NCBI GenBank assembly: GCA_017557625.1
Contig: JAFYYG010000052.1
Coordinates: 1 to 64,000 of the forward strand
Source: Muribaculaceae bacterium
GTDB lineage: Bacteria; Bacteroidota; Bacteroidia; Bacteroidales; Muribaculaceae
Length of the DNA: 64,000 nt
Direction of reading: 5' to 3'
Positions 37,145 through 62,691 of the stretch are shown here, in pieces (positions within the stretch are counted from its first letter, which is position 1; each line of letters begins with the position of its first letter). A program made the translations under genes and the position numbers. The notes under the pieces are model-generated. The model was not told the DNA's origin, searched no databases, and saw only the letters and a list, made by a program, of their open reading frames with translations.

Positions 37145-37258
37145 TGTTTTTCTAGATTTTCTAGAAGCTTCTAGAAATTCTAGACAATATAGATTATGAA
37201 TTAAGCATTATTAATTGTGCATTGAGCATTATGCATTATGCATTGTGCATTATGAATT
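37145..37258. repeat. Word repeats between sufB and sufC
   Basis: A TCTAGA run (37145-37186) is followed by a TGCATTATGCATT run (about 37200-37256). Both families recur elsewhere in the window, the second at 58031-58060 and 58474-58522. Confidence 0.75.
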
Positions 37259-52443: not shown

Positions 52444-53556
52444 ATGGAAATATTGAAAGGCGACAAATTGCTTGGTAAGGCTCAGTGTCAGGTGTTGCGC
52501 GGAATAGCCATTTTGGGCATATTCCTGCACAACTTCTGCCACCTAATGCGTGGCAGCAACGAGGAGAACGAGTTTGAATTTATCACTGAGCGCGCCAATA
52601 ATATGTGGAACTATTGGACTACTGGTGTTGATGTGTTTGCGCCAATTCAGTTGTTCGCATTTTTCGGCCATTATGGCGTGCCCATCTTCTTGTTTCTCAG
52701 TGGCTATGGCTTGGTGATGAAATATGAGCGAGGTGATGTGTCGTCACATGTGGGGATATGGCTATTTCTTGGTTCGCATTGGCTCAAGTTGTTCAAACTT
52801 ATGGTTCTGGGCTTTGTTCTCACGGTAATTACCTTCTTGGCTTGTGGCTTGCAGTGGCACGGCATCTTTGAGTATTTGGCACAAGCCACGATGCTGTCGA
52901 ATGTAGTCCCAAGTCTTTGTGATTCACATACTCCCTCGCCTTATTGGTTCTTTGGTGTGATGGTGGAGGTGTATGTTATTTACCGTTTCTTGATATATCC
53001 TTTCCACGATAAGCGGCAGTCTGTGTGGCGATGGCTTATGCCGTTGTTGCTGATAGTGCTCGCTTGGCTGCCGCAAGTGATGATGGAGCACCACCGCAAC
53101 ATGCTCATCTATGTGCGTCACAATGCGGCGATAGCGATGCTGCCGTTTGCCTTGGGGGTGCTGGTTGCGCGGTATAGCTTCCCAAAATTGCCGCGATGGT
53201 CACTAGCTGTGGTCGCTGTTGTGGCACTACCTATGCTAGCACTTTTTAGTCTCAATTATCAGCTGTGGCTCTGGGTTCCCGTATTAGTGATTGCCGGCAG
53301 CGTGGCATTTGTCAAACTCCTTGAGCCGTGCAAAGGTCTGTGTCACACCATTGTTATCTCGCCCCTTCACTACTTGGGCATGCTGTCGGCAATGTTTTTT
53401 GTCGTTCACTCCATCCCACGCATGCCCATCTATGTATTTGTGCTCAAAGCGCACAGCGGCCTGATGCTTATCGACTACGCCTGGCTCGCTCTCTACTTCG
53501 TGCTGACATTGGCGTTGGCATGGGGTTATAAGAAATGCATAAAGCACATTTCATAA
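52444..53556 (+). CDS. Acyltransferase-3 family membrane protein
   Basis: 370 residues with about ten helices. Family motif LRGIAILGIFLHNFCH at the N-terminus, with the conserved Arg and His; GVPIFLFLSGYGLVMKYERG follows. Transfers acyl groups to extracytoplasmic sugars in known members; substrate unknown. A TACTTTTG -7 box lies at 52418-52425, 18 bp before the ATG. Confidence 0.88.
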   Translation: MEILKGDKLLGKAQCQVLRGIAILGIFLHNFCHLMRGSNEENEFEFITERANNMWNYWTTGVDVFAPIQLFAFFGHYGVPIFLFLSGYGLVMKYERGDVSSHVGIWLFLGSHWLKLFKLMVLGFVLTVITFLACGLQWHGIFEYLAQATMLSNVVPSLCDSHTPSPYWFFGVMVEVYVIYRFLIYPFHDKRQSVWRWLMPLLLIVLAWLPQVMMEHHRNMLIYVRHNAAIAMLPFALGVLVARYSFPKLPRWSLAVVAVVALPMLALFSLNYQLWLWVPVLVIAGSVAFVKLLEPCKGLCHTIVISPLHYLGMLSAMFFVVHSIPRMPIYVFVLKAHSGLMLIDYAWLALYFVLTLALAWGYKKCIKHIS

Positions 53557-53613
53557 TGCACAATGGGACTACGGCAGAACCGTCGTACAGAGAACCTCTT
53601 AGTAAAACATTGT

Positions 53614-54964: not shown

Positions 54965-55060
54965 AATTAGTTGTTTTAATAGAAAATTTGTTCTGATTGT
55001 GCAAAATTACTTCTTTTTTGCCGAAAAAATCAAGAAACGCGATTAAAATAATGTGCAATT

Positions 55061-55092
55061 TTTGTTAACACAATTTTTTTTGACTATTTTTG
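55061..55092 (+). promoter_or_regulatory. Promoter of the 177-residue secreted protein gene
   Basis: TTTG (55061-55064), 20-bp spacer, TATTTTTG (55085-55092); the ATG is at 55117. Confidence 0.72.
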
Positions 55093-55116
55093 TGACCTGC
55101 AAAACACATCAAAATT

Positions 55117-55650
55117 ATGAAAAAAATCTTATTGTTGCTATTTGCGATGTTATCGCTGACTGCCAGTGGGCAGTATATGATAACCGACAAAGGCTATTTC
55201 TATAGTCCTGATGGTTTTAAGTGCAAACATGGCCACATCTACACTAAAGACATGCAGACGCTGGTGCGCACAGGGTGGTACGGCCGTGACGACTGGGATC
55301 AGCACTACCTTGTTGAGAAGCTTATAGAGGTGCCCTCGGGTGCCGAGGTGATTCCAAGCAATTTCCTTTATAATCCTGCTGGCGAGGCTGCTACGGGCTA
55401 CAACTGGCTTTATGCCGTAGTGATTCCGAGTTCGGTGCAATGGATAGCGACCGATGCCTTTATGATGTCTCGCGTGGTGTTCTTCACCGGAGAGACACCA
55501 GTGGAGTCAGCACCAAGTATCACTGCCGACCCCAATGCCACCGAACTTGCACGTTTCAATGTCGAAGGTCAGCGCATCGACGGGCCCCAGCCCGGCGTGA
55601 ACATCGTGCTGATGAGCGACGGCACAGCGCATAAAGTACTGGTAAAATAG
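55117..55650 (+). CDS. Secreted hypothetical protein with sorting-like C-terminus
   Basis: 177 residues. Signal peptide 1-19 (ends ASGQ). The middle contains a BspA-like beta-strand phrase (YAVVIPSSVQWIATDAFMMS). The C-terminus ARFNVEGQRIDGPQPG followed by NIVLMSDGTAHKVLVK resembles the short Bacteroidales tails related to type IX sorting domains. Probably surface-exposed; role unknown. Confidence 0.75.
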   Translation: MKKILLLLFAMLSLTASGQYMITDKGYFYSPDGFKCKHGHIYTKDMQTLVRTGWYGRDDWDQHYLVEKLIEVPSGAEVIPSNFLYNPAGEAATGYNWLYAVVIPSSVQWIATDAFMMSRVVFFTGETPVESAPSITADPNATELARFNVEGQRIDGPQPGVNIVLMSDGTAHKVLVK

Positions 55651-55664
55651 TTCATAGTTTAGAG

Positions 55665-55745
55665 TTAATAGTTCATAGTTTTTTTAATGAGTGACGGCAA
55701 TCGCTATTGGCTTGTTAGCTTGTTTACTCGTTAGCTTGTTTGCTT
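55665..55745. repeat. Word repeats upstream of phoH
   Basis: TTCATAGTTTAGAG words are followed by CTTGTTAGCTTGTTTACTCG words, both families also found elsewhere (46857-46891, 59903-59940; 283-308, 1576-1602). Confidence 0.7.
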
Positions 55746-55754
55746 AAATACAGA

Positions 55755-56723
55755 ATGATAGAACGACACGTAATAATTGACAACGTTGACCCTGTAGTGT
55801 TTTACGGGGTTAACAACACTAATATCCAATTAATTCGCAACTTGTTTCCCAAGCTGAGGATGGCGGCTCGCGGTTCGGTGATTACCGTCATTGGCGATGA
55901 GGCCGAGACCGAGAAGTTTGAGCACGACATCAAGCAGCTCGAGGACTATTGCGCTACTTACAACATTCTGCCCGAGGATGTGATACTCGACACCATCAAG
56001 GGGCTGCCGCCCAAGGAGCTCAAGATGGATGACGTGATTATCTACGGCGTGAACGGCAAACCCATCAAGGGCCGCACGCCGAACCAGCAGTTGATGGTCA
56101 AAACCTTCAACGAGAACGACTTGACCTTTGCGCTTGGTCCTGCGGGTACTGGCAAGACTTACCTTGCCGTGGCTCTTGCGGTGCGTGCGTTGAAGAATCG
56201 TGAGGTACGCAAGATTATCCTGTCGCGACCTGCTGTGGAGGCTGGCGAGAAATTGGGTTTCCTGCCTGGCGATATGCGCGATAAGATAGACCCCTATCTG
56301 CAACCGCTTTATGATGCCCTTGAGGACATGATTCCCGGAGCAAAGCTCAAGGAATATATGGACACTAATGTCATACAGATTGCTCCGCTTGCCTTTATGC
56401 GCGGTCGCACTCTCAACGACGCTATCATAGTACTTGACGAGGCGCAGAATACTACTACTCATCAGATTAAAATGTTCCTCACCCGCTTGGGAATGGGTTC
56501 AAAGATGGTGGTTACAGGCGACATCACTCAAATTGACCTGCCCCGCAGTGTCACCTCAGGTCTCATCCAAGCCCTGAAGGTGCTTGATGGCGTGAAAGGC
56601 ATCGGCAAGATTGAGTTTGGCAAGAAAGACATCGTGCGCCACCAGCTCGTGCAGCGCATCGTTGAGGCTTATGAGAAGCATGATGCGCTTGCATCTATCA
56701 ATGCAGAAAGAATGAAAGATTAG
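55755..56723 (+). CDS. phoH: PhoH-family ATPase
   Basis: 322 residues. Walker A GPAGTGKTYLAV, RPAVEAGEKLGFLPGD, IAPLAFMRGRTLND, Walker B VLDEAQNTT and VVTGDITQIDLP are all present. PhoH proteins are RNA-linked ATPases often tied to ribosome or RNA turnover. The ATG at 55755 (MIERHVIIDNVD) is chosen over an upstream non-ATG start. Followed by the first bracketed cassette. Confidence 0.94.
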   Translation: MIERHVIIDNVDPVVFYGVNNTNIQLIRNLFPKLRMAARGSVITVIGDEAETEKFEHDIKQLEDYCATYNILPEDVILDTIKGLPPKELKMDDVIIYGVNGKPIKGRTPNQQLMVKTFNENDLTFALGPAGTGKTYLAVALAVRALKNREVRKIILSRPAVEAGEKLGFLPGDMRDKIDPYLQPLYDALEDMIPGAKLKEYMDTNVIQIAPLAFMRGRTLNDAIIVLDEAQNTTTHQIKMFLTRLGMGSKMVVTGDITQIDLPRSVTSGLIQALKVLDGVKGIGKIEFGKKDIVRHQLVQRIVEAYEKHDALASINAERMKD

Positions 56724-56781
56724 ACAGTCCCTTTTCTAGACATAAGAACAGAAGTTGGTTTTTGGCTGCGCCTACTCTTTT

Positions 56782-57284
56782 TTAGACAAAAGAACAAAAG
56801 TTTTCAGAAGAACATAAATATTTTTTATGGATATTGAGAAATTGATTAGTGAAATATTGGATTGCGCTAATATTGTAAGAAAGGCTCTTGCACCAGGATA
56901 TGCCGAAAAAGTATATGAAAATGCTTTGATGATTGAGCTTTCAAAAGCAGGGATTAGTGCAAAACAGCAATCACCTATCATGGTAAAATATGATGATAAA
57001 GTGGTTGGTGAGTTCTATGCTGATATTTTTGTGGAAAATTGTGTCATAATAGAGTTAAAAGCCGTGCAAAATATCAATGAAGCGCATCAAGCACAATCGG
57101 TAAATTATTTGACAGCTACAGGTGTTGATAACGGATTGCTGATAAATTTTGGCAATGAAAGTAAAATACAGATTAGACGAAAATATCGCGTTTATCGGCC
57201 CAAAGAATAATTTGCTCTCAATTGGCACGCAAGATAATAATTAATTATGTTTCTTATGTGAAATAATTATGTTCTTTTGTCTAA
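56782..57284 (+). mobile_element. Candidate 503-bp cassette bounded by 15-bp inverted repeats (GxxExxY gene)
   Basis: TTAGACAAAAGAACA (56782-56796) and its perfect reverse complement TGTTCTTTTGTCTAA (57270-57284) enclose one gene (56827-57210). An imperfect direct copy of the left arm (TCTAGACATAAGAACAGAAG) precedes it at 56735. No obvious target-site duplication. The arms belong to a short-word family, so the bracket could also arise from repeat-dense DNA. Confidence 0.5.
56827..57210 (+). CDS. GxxExxY protein (PD-(D/E)XK-like)
   Basis: 127 residues. The family motif is GYAEKVYENAL (Gly-x-x-Glu-x-x-Tyr); YADIFVENCVIIELKAV carries the Asp/Glu-x-Lys pattern typical of PD-(D/E)XK nuclease folds. 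Function is not established. It is AT-rich compared with its neighbours phoH and ubiE, consistent with insertion between them. See the bracket at 56782-57284. Confidence 0.9.
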   Translation: MDIEKLISEILDCANIVRKALAPGYAEKVYENALMIELSKAGISAKQQSPIMVKYDDKVVGEFYADIFVENCVIIELKAVQNINEAHQAQSVNYLTATGVDNGLLINFGNESKIQIRRKYRVYRPKE

Positions 57285-57302
57285 TTTAACAGCAGAAGAG
57301 TG

Positions 57303-58037
57303 ATGAAGGTTGAGGAGATAAAGCCATATAGCAGTGAGGGGGAGAAGGCTCGGCAGGTGGAGGCGATGTTTGACAGCATTGCGCCTGCCTACGACTTTAT
57401 GAACCGCGCCATGACGCTAGGCATAGACCGGTGGTGGCGGCGTGTGGCAGTGAAGATGGTGAAGCGTAGCAATCCGCGCCGCATCCTCGACGTGGCGACA
57501 GGCACTGGCGACTTCGCCATTGACCTCTACCGTAAGATAAAGCCTGAGGCGGTGGTAGGCATAGACCTCTCGCAGGGCATGCTCGATGTGGCACGCAAGA
57601 AGATTGCAAAGCGTGGTCTTGGCGATGCCATCACCGTGCAGCAGGGCGACTGCCTGGCGTTGCCATTTGGCGATGGTGAGTTCGATGCGGTGACTGTGGC
57701 GTTTGGCGTGCGCAACTTCGAGCACCTGCAGCAAGGTTATCAGCAGATGCACCGTGTGCTCAAACCCGGCGGAATGTTGTGCGTGATAGAACTGTCCACA
57801 CCTCGCAACCGCGTGGTGCGGTGGTTCTATGACCTCTACACGCTGCATATAATACCGTGGTTTGGTGCGCTAAAATCTCACGATAAGAGTGCTTATCGTT
57901 ACTTGCCTCAAAGCATCGCTGCTGTACCGCAAGGCGAAGATATGCTCGCAATAATGCGCGAAGCAGGCTTCAAAGACTGCAAGGTGAAGCGGTTAACATT
58001 AGGTACTTGCTCAATCTACAGTGGGATAAATGCATAA
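57303..58037 (+). CDS. ubiE: Demethylmenaquinone methyltransferase (UbiE/MenG)
   Basis: 244 residues. SAM-binding motif VATGTGDFAI, then VGIDLSQGML, TVAFGVRNFEHLQQG and KPGGMLCVIELSTP: typical UbiE/MenG. Performs the last step of menaquinone synthesis, supplying quinone to cytochrome bd, whose genes lie 2 kb downstream. The ATG at 57303 is used. The stop codon (58035-58037) lies inside a TGCATAATGCATAATGC repeat, so the last two residues (Asn-Ala) are repeat-encoded. Confidence 0.95.
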   Translation: MKVEEIKPYSSEGEKARQVEAMFDSIAPAYDFMNRAMTLGIDRWWRRVAVKMVKRSNPRRILDVATGTGDFAIDLYRKIKPEAVVGIDLSQGMLDVARKKIAKRGLGDAITVQQGDCLALPFGDGEFDAVTVAFGVRNFEHLQQGYQQMHRVLKPGGMLCVIELSTPRNRVVRWFYDLYTLHIIPWFGALKSHDKSAYRYLPQSIAAVPQGEDMLAIMREAGFKDCKVKRLTLGTCSIYSGINA

Positions 58038-58509
58038 TGCATAATGCACAATGCATAAAAATGTTTAATCCTTTAATTCTAAATTAATGAAAAAAGATAA
58101 TGATAATATTATTGTGATTAAGAGCAAAACTTTTGCTTTGCGCTCAATTAAACTTTATCGTTATATGATTGAAGAAGAACACGAATATGTGTTGTCAAAA
58201 CAGTTTTTGCGTTCTGCCACAAGCATAGGTGCAAATGTGAAAGAAGCTATTAGAGGTCAAAGTGATGCTGACTTTGGTGCTAAGATGAATATTTCTTTAA
58301 AGGAAGCTAGCGAGACAGAATATTGGCTTGAATTAATGCAAGAGAGTGAGTATATCCCTTTTGACGAAGGCGAAAATATGCTTGCCGCCTGTCGTGAGTT
58401 AATAAGAATTCTCACAGCAATAGTCAAAACCACATTTGAGAATAATAAACAAAAATAATTAACCTTTCATTTTGCATTACGCATTCTAGATTGTGCATTA
58501 TGCATTATG
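58033..58509 (+). mobile_element. Candidate 477-bp cassette bounded by 20-bp inverted repeats (four-helix-bundle gene)
   Basis: CATAATGCATAATGCACAAT (58033-58052) has a perfect reverse complement at 58490-58509, enclosing one gene (58087-58458). The left arm overlaps the ubiE stop; the right arm ends 20 bp before pfkA. Four-helix-bundle (S23-like) genes are known inside 23S rRNA intervening sequences, which are also flanked by inverted repeats. Here the host would be a protein-coding transcript. Confidence 0.5.
58087..58458 (+). CDS. Four-helix-bundle protein (23S rRNA IVS/S23 type)
   Basis: 123 residues, all helical: [20 protein letters not shown], then [15 protein letters not shown], the family hallmark, and [18 protein letters not shown]. 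The family is known from intervening sequences of 23S rRNA and is related in fold to Avd proteins of diversity-generating retroelements; its function is unsettled. AT-rich relative to ubiE and pfkA. Confidence 0.92.
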
Positions 58510-58529
58510 AATTATGCATTTTAAGAAAA

Positions 58530-59510
58530 ATGGCAAAGATTAAGACAATTGGCGTGTTGACATCGGGAGGTGATGCTCCTGGCATGAATGCCTCAATCAG
58601 GGCGGTTACACGCTCGGCGATTTTTAATGGATTTAAGGTCAAAGGCATCTATCGCGGTTACCGCGGACTGGTGGAGAATGAAATCGTGGACTTTGAGGCA
58701 CAGAATGTGTCGAATATTATCCATCATGGGGGTACAATCCTGCGCACGGCGCGCTGCAAGGAGTTTAAGACCGAAGAAGGTAGGCAACAGGCTTATGATA
58801 ATATGAAGAAGCACGGCATTGACGCGCTGGTGGTGATTGGTGGCGACGGTTCGCTCACAGGAGCAAGGCAGTTTGCCAGCGAGTTTGATGTGCCTATTGT
58901 TGGCATTCCAGGCACTATCGACAACGATCTCTATGGTACCGACCACACCATTGGTTACGACACGGCCCTCAACACCATCATGTGGTGCGTGGATCGCATT
59001 CGCGATACCGCCAATAGCCATGAGCGCCTGTTCTTCATAGAGGTGATGGGGCGTAATGCAGGTTTCCTAGCCCTTAATGGCGCTATCGCTGGAGGTGCCG
59101 AGGCAGCTATCATCCCTGAGATTTCTATTGAGCACGACCAGTTGGCAGAGCTTATTAAGAGCGGTTTCCGTAAGAGTAAGAAGTCGGCGATAGTGCTTGT
59201 CGCCGAGAGTCCAATCACTGGAGGCGCCATGGGACTTGCCGAACGTGTGCACAACGAGTTTCCGCAGTATGACGTGCGTGTCACCATCCTCGGACACCTT
59301 CAGCGTGGAGGTACGCCAACTGCCCAAGACCGCATCCTCGCCTCGCGCATGGGTGACGCTGCAATAGAGGCACTGCTTGAAGGTCAGCGTAACGTGATGA
59401 TTGGCGATGACGACGAGAAGATGGTGTATGTGCCCTTCAGCAAAGCCATCAAGAACGAGAAAGATATAGACCGCCATCTGCTTGAGGTTGTGCACAGATT
59501 GTCGATTTAG
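58530..59510 (+). CDS. pfkA: ATP-dependent 6-phosphofructokinase
   Basis: 326 residues. [27 protein letters not shown] with the ATP-site Gly-Gly-Asp, catalytic [19 protein letters not shown] and [12 protein letters not shown]. Commits fructose 6-phosphate to glycolysis. The ATG at 58530 is chosen; an in-frame upstream ATG is made of the GCATTATGCATT repeat. A GTTGCGA/TCGCAAC palindrome follows the stop. Confidence 0.96.
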
Positions 59511-59518
59511 CCTTTTCA

Positions 59519-59537
59519 GTTGCGACGCCATCGCAAC
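59519..59537. repeat. GTTGCGA...TCGCAAC palindrome, copy 1
   Basis: GTTGCGA (59519-59525) and TCGCAAC (59531-59537) pair around five bases, directly after pfkA. A near-identical palindrome lies at 59885-59902; together they bracket the DUF4492 gene. Confidence 0.75.
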
Positions 59538-59580
59538 ATACTAAATTTAGAGGTAAAAATGGTGTGAAATCGCAAAAAAG

Positions 59581-59609
59581 TTACCTTAGGGTAATTTACC
59601 TTTGGGTAA
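59581..59609 (+). promoter_or_regulatory. Two adjacent TTACC-N4-GGTAA dyads upstream of DUF4492-cydAB
   Basis: TTACC-TTAG-GGTAA (59581-59594) and TTACC-TTTG-GGTAA (59596-59609), spaced by one base. A -7 box TATATTTG (59617-59624) follows 7 bp later, so both dyads lie where the -33 region would be. The 5-N4-5 form is that of CRP/FNR-family sites. An oxygen- or redox-responsive regulator is a reasonable inference. Confidence 0.6.
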
Positions 59610-59616
59610 CTTTTAG

Positions 59617-59624
59617 TATATTTG
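59617..59624 (+). promoter_or_regulatory. -7 box of the DUF4492-cydAB operon
   Basis: TATATTTG matches TAnnTTTG and lies 28 bp before the DUF4492 ATG. No clear -33 TTTG at the normal distance, which would suit an activator-dependent promoter using the dyads upstream. Confidence 0.6.
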
Positions 59625-59652
59625 CGGACCACATTCTTAACTAATTGAAAAT

Positions 59653-59874
59653 ATGGAAGAAAAGAAGGGCTTTTGGGCACGGGCGGTTGACCTTTATGTT
59701 GACGGTTTCCGTTCAATGACGGTGGGTAAGACCTTGTGGATTATCATCGGCATCAAGCTCATTATATTCTTTGTGATAATAAAAATACTGTTTTTTCCTA
59801 ACTTCCTATCCTCTAAGAGCGATACCGATGAGGGTAAAGCGCAATATGTGCGTGAGCAACTCACTAAGAAATAA
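59653..59874 (+). CDS. DUF4492-family small membrane protein
   Basis: 73 residues: an amphipathic N-terminus (FWARAVDLYVDGFRSM), one transmembrane helix (about 28-48) and a charged tail. DUF4492 genes commonly precede cydAB in Bacteroidetes, as here, suggesting an accessory subunit or assembly factor of cytochrome bd; this is context-based. Confidence 0.88.
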   Translation: MEEKKGFWARAVDLYVDGFRSMTVGKTLWIIIGIKLIIFFVIIKILFFPNFLSSKSDTDEGKAQYVREQLTKK

Positions 59875-59884
59875 GTGTTAAGTG

Positions 59885-59902
59885 GTTGCGATGCATCGCA
59901 AC
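59885..59902. repeat. GTTGCGATGCATCGCAAC palindrome, copy 2
   Basis: Perfect 18-bp palindrome between DUF4492 and cydA, followed by AACTATAAACTGTGAAC-type words up to the cydA start. Confidence 0.85.
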
Positions 59903-59945
59903 AAACTATAAACTGTGAACTTTGAACTATTAACTTATAACTATC

Positions 59946-61532
59946 ATGGGTGACTTATTAATGACAGTAGTCGATTGGTCGAGGGCGCAATTCGCGTTGA
60001 CAGCCTGTTATCACTGGCTGTTTGTGCCGTTGACGCTAGGACTGGGAGTAATAATCGGTGTGATGGAGACCATCTATTATCGCACTCGCGATGAGAAATG
60101 GCTTGCCACCACCAAGTTTTGGATGACCGTCTTTGGCGTGAACTTCGCCATTGGCGTGGCAACGGGCATCATCCTCGAGTTTGAGTTTGGCACTAACTGG
60201 TCAAACTATAGCTGGTTTGTGGGTGACATCTTCGGTGCGCCGCTTGCCATCGAGGGAATTCTCGCCTTCTTCATGGAATCGACGTTCATTGCTGTGATGT
60301 TCTTCGGTTGGAAGAAGGTGTCGCCCAAGTTCCATCTTGCCGCTACATGGCTCACGGCTTTAGGAGCGAGCATCTCGGCATTGTGGATTCTTGTGGCAAA
60401 CTCGTGGATGCAATATCCTGCTGGTTGCACCTTCAATCCCGAGACGATGCGAAATGAGATGACCAACTTCTGGGACGTGGCATTCTCACCGATGGCTATG
60501 GCGAAGGTGTTCCACACCGTGACCAGCGCTTGGGCGCTCAGCGGTGCCTTTGTGGTGGGCGTGTGCGGATGGCTGCTGCTGAAAAAACGCAACCGCGACC
60601 ATGCCTTGCGAAGCCTCAAGGTGGGCGGCTGGGTAGGACTGATAGGCATCGTCCTCACCAGTATCAGCGGCGACACCTCGGCAGTCCAGGTCGCTAAGCA
60701 TCAGCCGATGAAACTCGCTGCGATGGAGGGCCTCTACAAGGGCGAGCAAGGCCAGTCGATAGTGGCATTCGGCATTCTCAACCCATCGAAGGAGGTTGGC
60801 GATAGCAATGACCCTTATCTATTTGATATTTCTATTCCTCACGGCCTTGCATTCTTGGCAACCCATGATTTCAACGCCTTTGTGCCTGGTATAGAGGATA
60901 TTATTGACGGTAAGTCGATGGATGCCGACGGTAAGCCCATCAACACAGTGTCTTACGCTGACCGCATAGAACAAGGAAAGTTGGCTAAAGATGCGCTCGG
61001 AGTGTATCAGAAGGCGCACAGAATAGGCGATAGTATCACCATGCAGGAACAAAGTAAGGTTATTGATGATAATTTCAAGCATTTGGGTTATGCTTACCTA
61101 GATAAACCCGAGGAAGCTGTGCCCAATGTGCCGTTGACGTTCTACACCTTCCACCTGATGGTGACAATAGGTGGTTATCTTGTGCTGTTCTTCATTGTGG
61201 TGCTTCTGTTACTCTACAAGCCTGAAGGGATTCCTTGGAAAGAAAAACTGGCGAAACCAGCCTATTGGCTTGCTATTCTCACCATTCCGCTTACTTACCT
61301 GTGTTCGATGTGCGGATGGATAGTCGCCGAGGTGGGCCGCCAGCCGTGGACCATCCAAGACCTTATGCCCAACAAGGTAGCTATAAGCGACCTCTCAGCT
61401 GGATATGTGCAGACCACCTTCTGGATCTTTGCTGTGGTGTTCACCGCGCTGCTAATTGCCGATGTAAGCATCATCTGCAAGCAGATTTCCAAGAAATCGA
61501 AGACTGATCTCAATGTAGTAGAAACAAAATAA
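59946..61532 (+). CDS. cydA: Cytochrome bd quinol oxidase subunit I
   Basis: 528 residues, about nine helices. The haem b595 His is His23 (ACYHWLFVPLTLG); a second haem ligand His lies in KVFHTVTSAWAL (around 196); GRQPWTIQ is conserved near 465. The periplasmic loop between 240 and 390 contains the quinol-binding region. Reduces oxygen to water at low oxygen tension with menaquinol. Operon DUF4492-cydA-cydB. Confidence 0.96.
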   Translation: MGDLLMTVVDWSRAQFALTACYHWLFVPLTLGLGVIIGVMETIYYRTRDEKWLATTKFWMTVFGVNFAIGVATGIILEFEFGTNWSNYSWFVGDIFGAPLAIEGILAFFMESTFIAVMFFGWKKVSPKFHLAATWLTALGASISALWILVANSWMQYPAGCTFNPETMRNEMTNFWDVAFSPMAMAKVFHTVTSAWALSGAFVVGVCGWLLLKKRNRDHALRSLKVGGWVGLIGIVLTSISGDTSAVQVAKHQPMKLAAMEGLYKGEQGQSIVAFGILNPSKEVGDSNDPYLFDISIPHGLAFLATHDFNAFVPGIEDIIDGKSMDADGKPINTVSYADRIEQGKLAKDALGVYQKAHRIGDSITMQEQSKVIDDNFKHLGYAYLDKPEEAVPNVPLTFYTFHLMVTIGGYLVLFFIVVLLLLYKPEGIPWKEKLAKPAYWLAILTIPLTYLCSMCGWIVAEVGRQPWTIQDLMPNKVAISDLSAGYVQTTFWIFAVVFTALLIADVSIICKQISKKSKTDLNVVETK

Positions 61533-61536
61533 AAAA

Positions 61537-61543
61537 GAGGAGG
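61537..61543 (+). promoter_or_regulatory. Shine-Dalgarno sequence of cydB
   Basis: GAGGAGG, eight bases before the cydB ATG at 61552. One of very few SD sequences in the window. Confidence 0.6.
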
Positions 61544-61551
61544 ACGCAACT

Positions 61552-62691
61552 ATGACACACGAAATGTTACAAAACTATTGGTGGCTGATAATGTCGGTGC
61601 TTGGCGCACTGCTGGTGTTCCTGCTCTTTGTGCAGGGCGGACAGTCGATGCTCATCACTACCAAGAAAGAGAAACGCCCGTTGCTCATCAACTCGCTTGG
61701 GCGCAAATGGGAGCTTACTTTCACTACTTTAGTGACCTTTGGCGGAGCTTTCTTCGCCTCGTTCCCGCTGTTCTACAGCACCAGCTTCGGTGGTGCCTAC
61801 TGGCTGTGGATTCTTATCCTTTTCAGCTTTGTGGTCCAGGCTGTTGCCTACGAGTACCGCACCAAGCATGGCAACGTGTATGGCACAAAGTTCTACGACA
61901 CCTTATTATTAATAAATGGTTTTGCCGGTCCTGTGCTTCTTGGCGTGGCGGTGGCAGGAATGTTCTTTGGCGCCGATTTCACCGTTGAGAAAACCAATAT
62001 CCTCGATGTTCAGGCCGCTACAATCTCGAAGTGGGGTCCTCATCATGGCCTTGAGGCTATAGCCTGCTGGAAGAACCTGCTCTTCGGGTTTATGGTGTTC
62101 TATCTGGCCCGCACATTGGCGTCGCTCTATTTCATCAACAACATCAATGACGAAGAGGTGCAGCGTGGCCAGCACAAGCGGCTCTTTATCAACTCTACAA
62201 TCTTTGTGGTGCTGTTCCTGGCTGTAGTGGCAGTGATTCTCACATCGCCTGGAGTGGAAATTGACGAGGTCGGGAATGCCATTTGGGTGCCAAACAAGTA
62301 TCTTACCAACTACGTGCAGATGTGGTGGGCACTCGGAGCATTGCTCTTTGGCGTGGCGATGGTGCTCAATGGCATCATCAAGTCGCTGCTCAAGAAAACC
62401 TACAAGAAAGGCATCTGGTGGGCTGGCATCGGTGTGGTGCTTGTGGTGATGAGCCTGTTCTGGGTAGTGGGTTACAACCACACCGCTTATTATCCCTCGC
62501 TGCAGGATGTGCAGCATTCACTCACTCTCGCTAACAGCTCGTCGTCTGAGTTCACGCTCACAGCCATGAGCTACGTGTCGCTGCTTGTTCCATTTGTCCT
62601 TGCCTACATCGTGTGGGTGTGGCGTAAAATGGACCACACTAAGCTCACCGACGAGGAAATCAATCAAGCCGGCGACGATGAAATTTATTAA
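61552..62691 (+). CDS. cydB: Cytochrome bd quinol oxidase subunit II
   Basis: 379 residues with about eight helices. NYWWLIMSVLGALLVFLLFVQGGQ at the N-terminus and WELTFTTLVTFGGAFFASFP are family features; the protein supports the haem core in CydA. It starts 19 bp after cydA with a clear SD. Followed by TCTAGA word repeats (62701-62745). Confidence 0.94.
   Translation: MTHEMLQNYWWLIMSVLGALLVFLLFVQGGQSMLITTKKEKRPLLINSLGRKWELTFTTLVTFGGAFFASFPLFYSTSFGGAYWLWILILFSFVVQAVAYEYRTKHGNVYGTKFYDTLLLINGFAGPVLLGVAVAGMFFGADFTVEKTNILDVQAATISKWGPHHGLEAIACWKNLLFGFMVFYLARTLASLYFINNINDEEVQRGQHKRLFINSTIFVVLFLAVVAVILTSPGVEIDEVGNAIWVPNKYLTNYVQMWWALGALLFGVAMVLNGIIKSLLKKTYKKGIWWAGIGVVLVVMSLFWVVGYNHTAYYPSLQDVQHSLTLANSSSSEFTLTAMSYVSLLVPFVLAYIVWVWRKMDHTKLTDEEINQAGDDEIY

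Follow-up and report, generated by a model that had tools for sequence, protein, structure and literature searches.

An S23 four-helix-bundle gene within inverted heptamer arrays suggests a mobile unit that has a repeat of its own

What is a small four-helix-bundle gene, framed by inverted repeats, doing between ubiE and pfkA? In the 64-kb stretch of Muribaculaceae DNA analysed here (the window), a first-pass annotation had picked out such a gene within 20-bp perfect inverted repeats, seen the ubiE stop inside one arm, and likened the whole to the intervening sequences (IVSs) of 23S rRNA, here placed between protein genes. Gene, arms and the enclosed stop were all confirmed (Table 1), and the placement of an IVS-type unit between protein genes is supported. 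The gene scored 101.3 bits against TIGR02436 (E 3.3e-29; curated cut-off 24) and 90.3 bits against PF05635 (E 1.2e-25; cut-off 33.8), and is by profile a member of this four helix bundle S23 family. Pfam and NCBIfam scans detected no transposase domain in it; besides PF05635 and TIGR02436, they returned two PRK12275-type models below cut-off.

Table 1 Coordinates of the S23 unit, its neighbours, the adjacent GxxExxY unit and solo arrays in the window
Feature	Position	Strand	Remark
S23 / four helix bundle gene, 123 aa	58087..58458	+	TIGR02436, PF05635; 2rld is the only solved relative by sequence
Left arm, GCATTAT/GCATTGT heptamer array on the minus strand	58029..58058	-	ubiE stop inside
Left copy of 20-nt perfect inverted repeat	58033..58052	+	
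Right copy of 20-nt perfect inverted repeat	58490..58509	-	
Right arm, GCATTAT-type heptamer array	58467..58521	+	degenerate inner part 58467-58485; main part 58491-58521
ubiE, upstream neighbour	57300..58037	+	same strand as S23 gene
pfkA, downstream neighbour	58530..59510	+	same strand as S23 gene
Solo array of the window-unit heptamer	37191..37258	+	at 3' end of a minus-strand ORF
Second, weaker solo array of the window-unit heptamer	53534..53566	-	
GxxExxY gene (TIGR04256, PF13366)	56827..57210	+	just upstream of ubiE
Left arm of GxxExxY unit, 42 nt	56782..56823	+	71% complementary to right arm
Right arm of GxxExxY unit	57243..57284	+	

The whole S23 unit occupies 58029–58521, between the ubiE stop and the pfkA start. 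The perfect arms end in a mismatch at the next base on both sides; as imperfect arms they extend to 31 nt with a 90% match (58028–58058 and 58491–58521), with the ubiE stop TAA at 58035–58037 inside the left arm and the ATG of pfkA (58530) eight bases after the right arm. An arm–arm stem was predicted in the RNA of the unit (fold z −2.24; 2/100 shuffles as good), and by sequence match and fold prediction the unit thus has the complementary, stem-capable termini of an IVS. Positions 55000–62000 gave no Rfam match, that is, the unit is not in an rRNA gene; no rRNA was found at 20 other S23 loci (of the 128 described below), and one tRNA was. Among the 16 listed inverted pairs of the window (at least 22 nt, within 1.5 kb), the unit ranks second. 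With up to two mismatches, GCATTATGCATT occurred 27 times in the window against 10 expected, indicating that single arrays are dispersed through it. The heptamer-array nature of the arms, the subfamily-specific repeats described below and a second bracketed unit nearby had not been part of the first-pass annotation.

We interpret the locus as a compact, IVS-like selfish unit, in which an S23 gene would travel within inverted arrays of a 7-nt repeat specific to its subfamily, protein and repeat forming a partnership; we put the probability of this reading at about 0.6.

Similar arms were found around related S23 genes elsewhere. S23 genes are carried by 55 of 61 genomes of the genus (228 matches by per-genome count), from which 128 loci, mostly the stronger ones, were taken; one (L008) was not recovered by the S23 profile and three of the 127 genes had too little flank, leaving 124 loci, or 52 sites after merging those with common flanks. 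Inverted arms scoring at least 14 were present at 43 of the 52 sites, compared with 113 of 2652 mispaired left and right flanks, and arms were scored as matching at 109 of the 124 loci (L003 arms score 27). One control gene in 185 reached 14, and it abuts a GxxExxY fragment. Nine sites scored below 14 and six of these below 12 (L007, which is broken, L137, L145, L152, L186 and L213); L213 is a member of a subfamily used in the co-occurrence test below. The source genome has eight S23 matches, and six of the seven with analysed flanks score at least 14, with repeats that differ. Matching over so many loci within each locus rules out an origin of the arms in the chance density of GCATTATGCATT words.

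Beyond the genus, 11 of 29 loci returned from many matches in a phylum sample reached 14 (mispaired, 10/812), as did 18 of 20 plasmid S23 loci (mispaired, 58/380). The plasmid set used 20 of 26 records, from Cyanobacteriota, Spirochaetota, Bacillota, Chloroflexota and Bacteroidota, with gene bounds set by hand at the unannotated loci L315, L320, L334 and L338. One of its members, L325, carries an identical 40-nt arm pair that includes a non-heptad insert. Comparison between sites shows that, at the level of sequence, arms and gene form one unit occurring at different sites. The recurrence of this arrangement around related genes in several phyla points to a mobile unit that is widespread and has its particular repeat as partner.

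The period of the arms is predominantly seven. At lags 7 and 14, autocorrelation was 0.389 and 0.366 in S23 flanks, as against 0.282 and 0.273 for control genes, and 0.456 and 0.436 in plasmid S23 flanks from the five phyla. The best period in the 109 S23 arm pairs was 7 in 86, 8 in 8, 14 in 6, 6 in 2 and 10 in 1, with none in 6. The order of variant units was more alike between the two arms at 30 of 46 sites, less so at 6 and within 0.01 at 10, which favours in-register copying, but as the register had been chosen as the best one the test is biased and we give it no weight. The L325 arm pair described above is a more telling individual example.

The heptamer itself differs from one S23 subfamily to another. 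A single mobile element with constant terminal repeats was rejected on account of this variation. When sites with unrelated flanks were compared, an arm score of at least 17 was reached by 0.5–2.3% of pairs below 55% S23 protein identity, by 24% (n = 495) at 55–65%, by 56% (n = 190) at 65–80% and by 10 of 10 above 80%. One S23 subfamily was found behind different genes.

Three heptamer families were then counted across the same 61 genomes. GCATTRT matches occurred in every one of the 11 genomes whose S23 shares 58% or more identity with that of the window and in 6 of the 50 others (G011 28, G034 14, G030 7, G005 4, G039 2 and G053 1). In the five genomes listed in full, matches outside the unit numbered 1 (G015), 7 (G016), 20 (G001), 25 (G049) and 38 (G056); nine of the ten matches in G015 lie inside the unit itself. 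For CTAGTYY, 17 genomes have an S23 that is 62% or more identical to three reference members; 14 of them gave matches, the exceptions being G034, G041 and G057, and so did 7 of 44 others (G036 53, G037 21, G017 10, G032 2, and one each in G020, G052 and G059). Six or more GAAGTRR matches were found in all four cognate genomes and in none of the 57 others, eight of which had at least one. Reversed-pattern controls gave none for GCATTRT, one for CTAGTYY (G004) and five for GAAGTRR (G000 three, G049 two). Comparison thus shows array matches of the three tested heptamers mainly in genomes with the cognate S23, with exceptions; as the patterns were taken from unit arms, the identity cuts were placed at gaps in the lists when the counts could already be seen, and relatedness among genomes still contributes to the numbers, these co-occurrences are to be read as associations.

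Could the arrays instead be host repeats of other origin, slippage-prone intergenic heptamers in which S23 genes land or which they use as regulatory sites? The several genomes with arrays but no cognate S23 would be expected from this, as would the heptad arrays without S23 that, by eye, fill many junctions, for example the gap before a carbonic-anhydrase-like gene; the intergenic heptamers of Xanthomonas, Nostoc and Beggiatoaceae were likewise reported, in the accounts we drew on, without a link to S23 (PMC4692102, PMC4679880). Against it, the arms match within a locus and track the S23 subfamily at unrelated sites, and the three repeat families largely follow the cognate S23 across genomes. 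We consider this origin of the arrays unlikely.

A further possibility is that S23 is an RNA- or DNA-binding regulator of adjacent genes, with the arms as operator or processing stem and ordinary recombination moving the unit. Judged from substitution rates, S23 is under purifying selection (median dN/dS 0.084, highest 0.288, over 47 non-independent same-site pairs with dS 0.05–1.48), so the protein matters to something; this selection fits the selfish-unit reading as well as a regulator. The left arm also lies within 15 nt of an upstream stop codon at 58 of 77 loci by longest-frame calling and at 33 of 42 sites by a codon-bias caller, and plasmid copies adjoin genes annotated as restriction, Cas or DUF1156/Swt1-type. 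Patchy presence among relatives, the occurrence of one subfamily behind different genes and the dispersed solo arrays all speak against a regulator of neighbours, and we regard it as less probable still than a host origin of the arrays.

Among these plasmid neighbourhoods, S23 lies antisense between cas2 and cas1 on Nostoc and Anabaena plasmids (L326 and L329) and upstream of cas1 on a Pseudanabaena plasmid (L331); other copies adjoin the restriction or DUF1156/Swt1-type genes, and those on two Nostoc plasmids (L321 and L322) adjoin XisH or XisI genes.

The unit had also been proposed to act on mRNA. Within the genus, unit and upstream gene run in the same direction at 49 of 51 sites (a further site was unclear), compared with 77 of 112 control genes; these calls come from the codon-bias caller, which replaced longest-frame calling (same-strand at 39 of 52 sites) as the latter was noisy on strands. 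Of 19 plasmid units, 13 share the strand of their upstream gene, a proportion not above that of the control genes (77/112), so that the mRNA reading draws on the genus alone. In the plasmid annotation, which is incomplete, thirteen units are co-directional with both neighbours, three run antisense between like-directed genes, three lie next to an upstream gene that diverges from them, and for one nothing is annotated upstream. A putative action on mRNA agrees with the sense position in the genus and the predicted stem, but not with plasmid orientation at control level or with the antisense units.

Solo arrays show a similar preference for gene ends. In the source genome, 17 of 21 have the stop of an ORF of at least 90 aa inside them or within 5 nt (by eye; 30 of 58 matches covered), and they are in this respect 7-nt arrays near stops with fixed polarity, of the kind known as intergenic heptamers in Xanthomonas and Nostoc.

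Relatives were fetched via ubiE and are mostly rumen Muribaculaceae and allied metagenome-assembled genomes. The empty sites that the first-pass annotation had proposed looking for in sister genomes were found: no S23 is present in the ubiE–pfkA spacers (about 30–260 nt) of L070, L071, L073–L080 and L082, and the unit at this site is, like an IVS, sporadic among relatives. L069 shares the window unit, with an S23 96% identical. In another species, L081, the ubiE–pfkA gap holds a GxxExxY gene with other flanks (L081:3724-4392).

The suggestion that the left arm had supplied the last codons and stop of ubiE held in part. The stop does lie in the arm, but ubiE ends in AATGCATAA or a close variant in four insert-free relatives as well (L073, L078, L080 and L082), so gene ends of this kind exist without the insert, and the arm, which coincides with one, was not necessarily its source. 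In L069, ubiE has lost the stop within the first heptamer, and its frame continues through the array to a later stop.

Between the window and L069, dS is 0.20 for S23, 0.62 for GxxExxY, 0.87 for ubiE and 1.15 for pfkA, and the unit therefore either is younger at this site or changed hands once the two hosts had diverged. Identity over 57300–59510 is 92% for ubiE and only 85% for pfkA, a difference that may reflect recombination between them. A tree of ubiE and pfkA leaves the order of events at the site unfixed.

One relative, L072, has arms at the same site around a short non-coding core and no S23. Together with the inverted termini and compact build, this arms-only form is what a conventional insertion sequence or MITE with fixed terminal repeats might leave. 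The termini vary by subfamily, however, the scans found no transposase domain, and no target site duplication was recognised by eye when occupied and empty ubiE–pfkA sites were compared; such an element is in our judgement very improbable.

At a second site, before the carbonic-anhydrase-like gene, a unit was seen by eye within 230 bp in 2 of 30 loci (L283 and L286), a few of the other loci being without the usual upstream gene. The heptad arrays in this gap (L283–L312) differ by species, as if replacing each other (by eye).

The window also holds a GxxExxY unit (56782–57284), with a PD-(D/E)XK gene, which ranks first among the 16 inverted pairs. GxxExxY flanks are periodic at 9 and 18 nt, whereas control genes have neither a 7/14- nor a 9/18-nt period, and the best period in 26 GxxExxY arm pairs was 9 in 12 and 8 in 3, with none in 11. 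An arm score of 14 was reached at 26 of 30 loci but also in 224 of 870 mispaired flanks, the motif being common across loci. On plasmids, two of six loci fetched (eight records) reached 14, with no clear period, so the 9-nt class is supported for this genus only. In this genus, GxxExxY genes are a parallel class with 9-nt repeats.

How might the S23 unit work? It would have landed, in the sense orientation, downstream of the ubiE stop and upstream of the pfkA start. An S23 oligomer may bind its own heptamers, and the arms would pair in read-through mRNA, allowing the insert to be tolerated between cistrons; the model for such tolerance would be the rRNA IVSs, whose stem is cleaved by RNase III. 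Copying of the unit and its arrays could be promoted by S23, possibly together with host enzymes, in a partnership like that of RAYT with REP.

What the unit has in common with RAYT–REP is a protein gene that stands between copies of its own repeat, further copies being scattered between genes, and here dispersed copies do occur in the same genome as an S23 gene flanked by its own repeat. RAYT–REP is defined by a Y1/HuH transposase gene, which the S23 unit does not have; it carries no transposase domain by Pfam or NCBIfam, and its repeats are 7-nt arrays rather than palindromes. A four-helix-bundle relative of S23, Avd of diversity-generating retroelements, works with a reverse transcriptase and a template repeat.

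The comparison with IVSs was strengthened by a described 23S IVS that itself carries an S23p ORF: it is 428 nt long and has complementary termini of 28 bp, its ORF reads in the direction of the host transcript and is preceded by two or three tandem heptamers, and RNase III cuts this IVS in vitro (PMC4990558). The window unit resembles it in its sense S23 ORF, its complementary termini and the heptamers beside the ORF, and differs in lying between protein genes, in an ORF that is conserved rather than decaying, in arrays on both sides and in the solo arrays elsewhere. S23 proteins have, on that account, a solved fold and no known function (PMC4990558).

The heptamers of Xanthomonas and Nostoc are described as intergenic, near stop or start codons and with a strand preference, forming inverted pairs in Xanthomonas (PMC4692102), and TAACTGA repeats have been described in Beggiatoaceae, cyanobacteria and Bacteroidetes (PMC4679880). 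The S23 solo arrays share with these the closeness to stop or start codons and the strand preference. The author of the TAACTGA study raised the idea that what moves might be some unidentified protein that binds the repeats, and likened the distribution of XisH/XisI genes to that of the repeats (PMC4679880). The terms S23 and helix bundle are absent from the main texts of both reports, and the open-access literature that we consulted offered no prior link of S23 genes to heptamers outside rRNA.

A broader proposal, to which we give somewhat less than even odds, is that S23 is a sequence-specific partner of heptad arrays that drives their spread, forming a new protein–repeat mobile class apart from RAYT–REP. 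It would explain arrays in Bacteroidota, cyanobacteria and others, make rRNA IVSs one landing site, and place the GxxExxY nucleases, with their 9-nt arrays, as a sister class.

The wider finding is, as far as sequences tell, a protein family that has a short-period repeat of its own as partner. Intergenic heptamer arrays have so far been described piecemeal, in Xanthomonas, Nostoc and Beggiatoaceae, and in the accounts cited above without a named protein or mechanism. The link proposed here would give S23 a candidate role and the arrays a candidate owner, and it would make rRNA intervening sequences a single instance of a broader kind of element.
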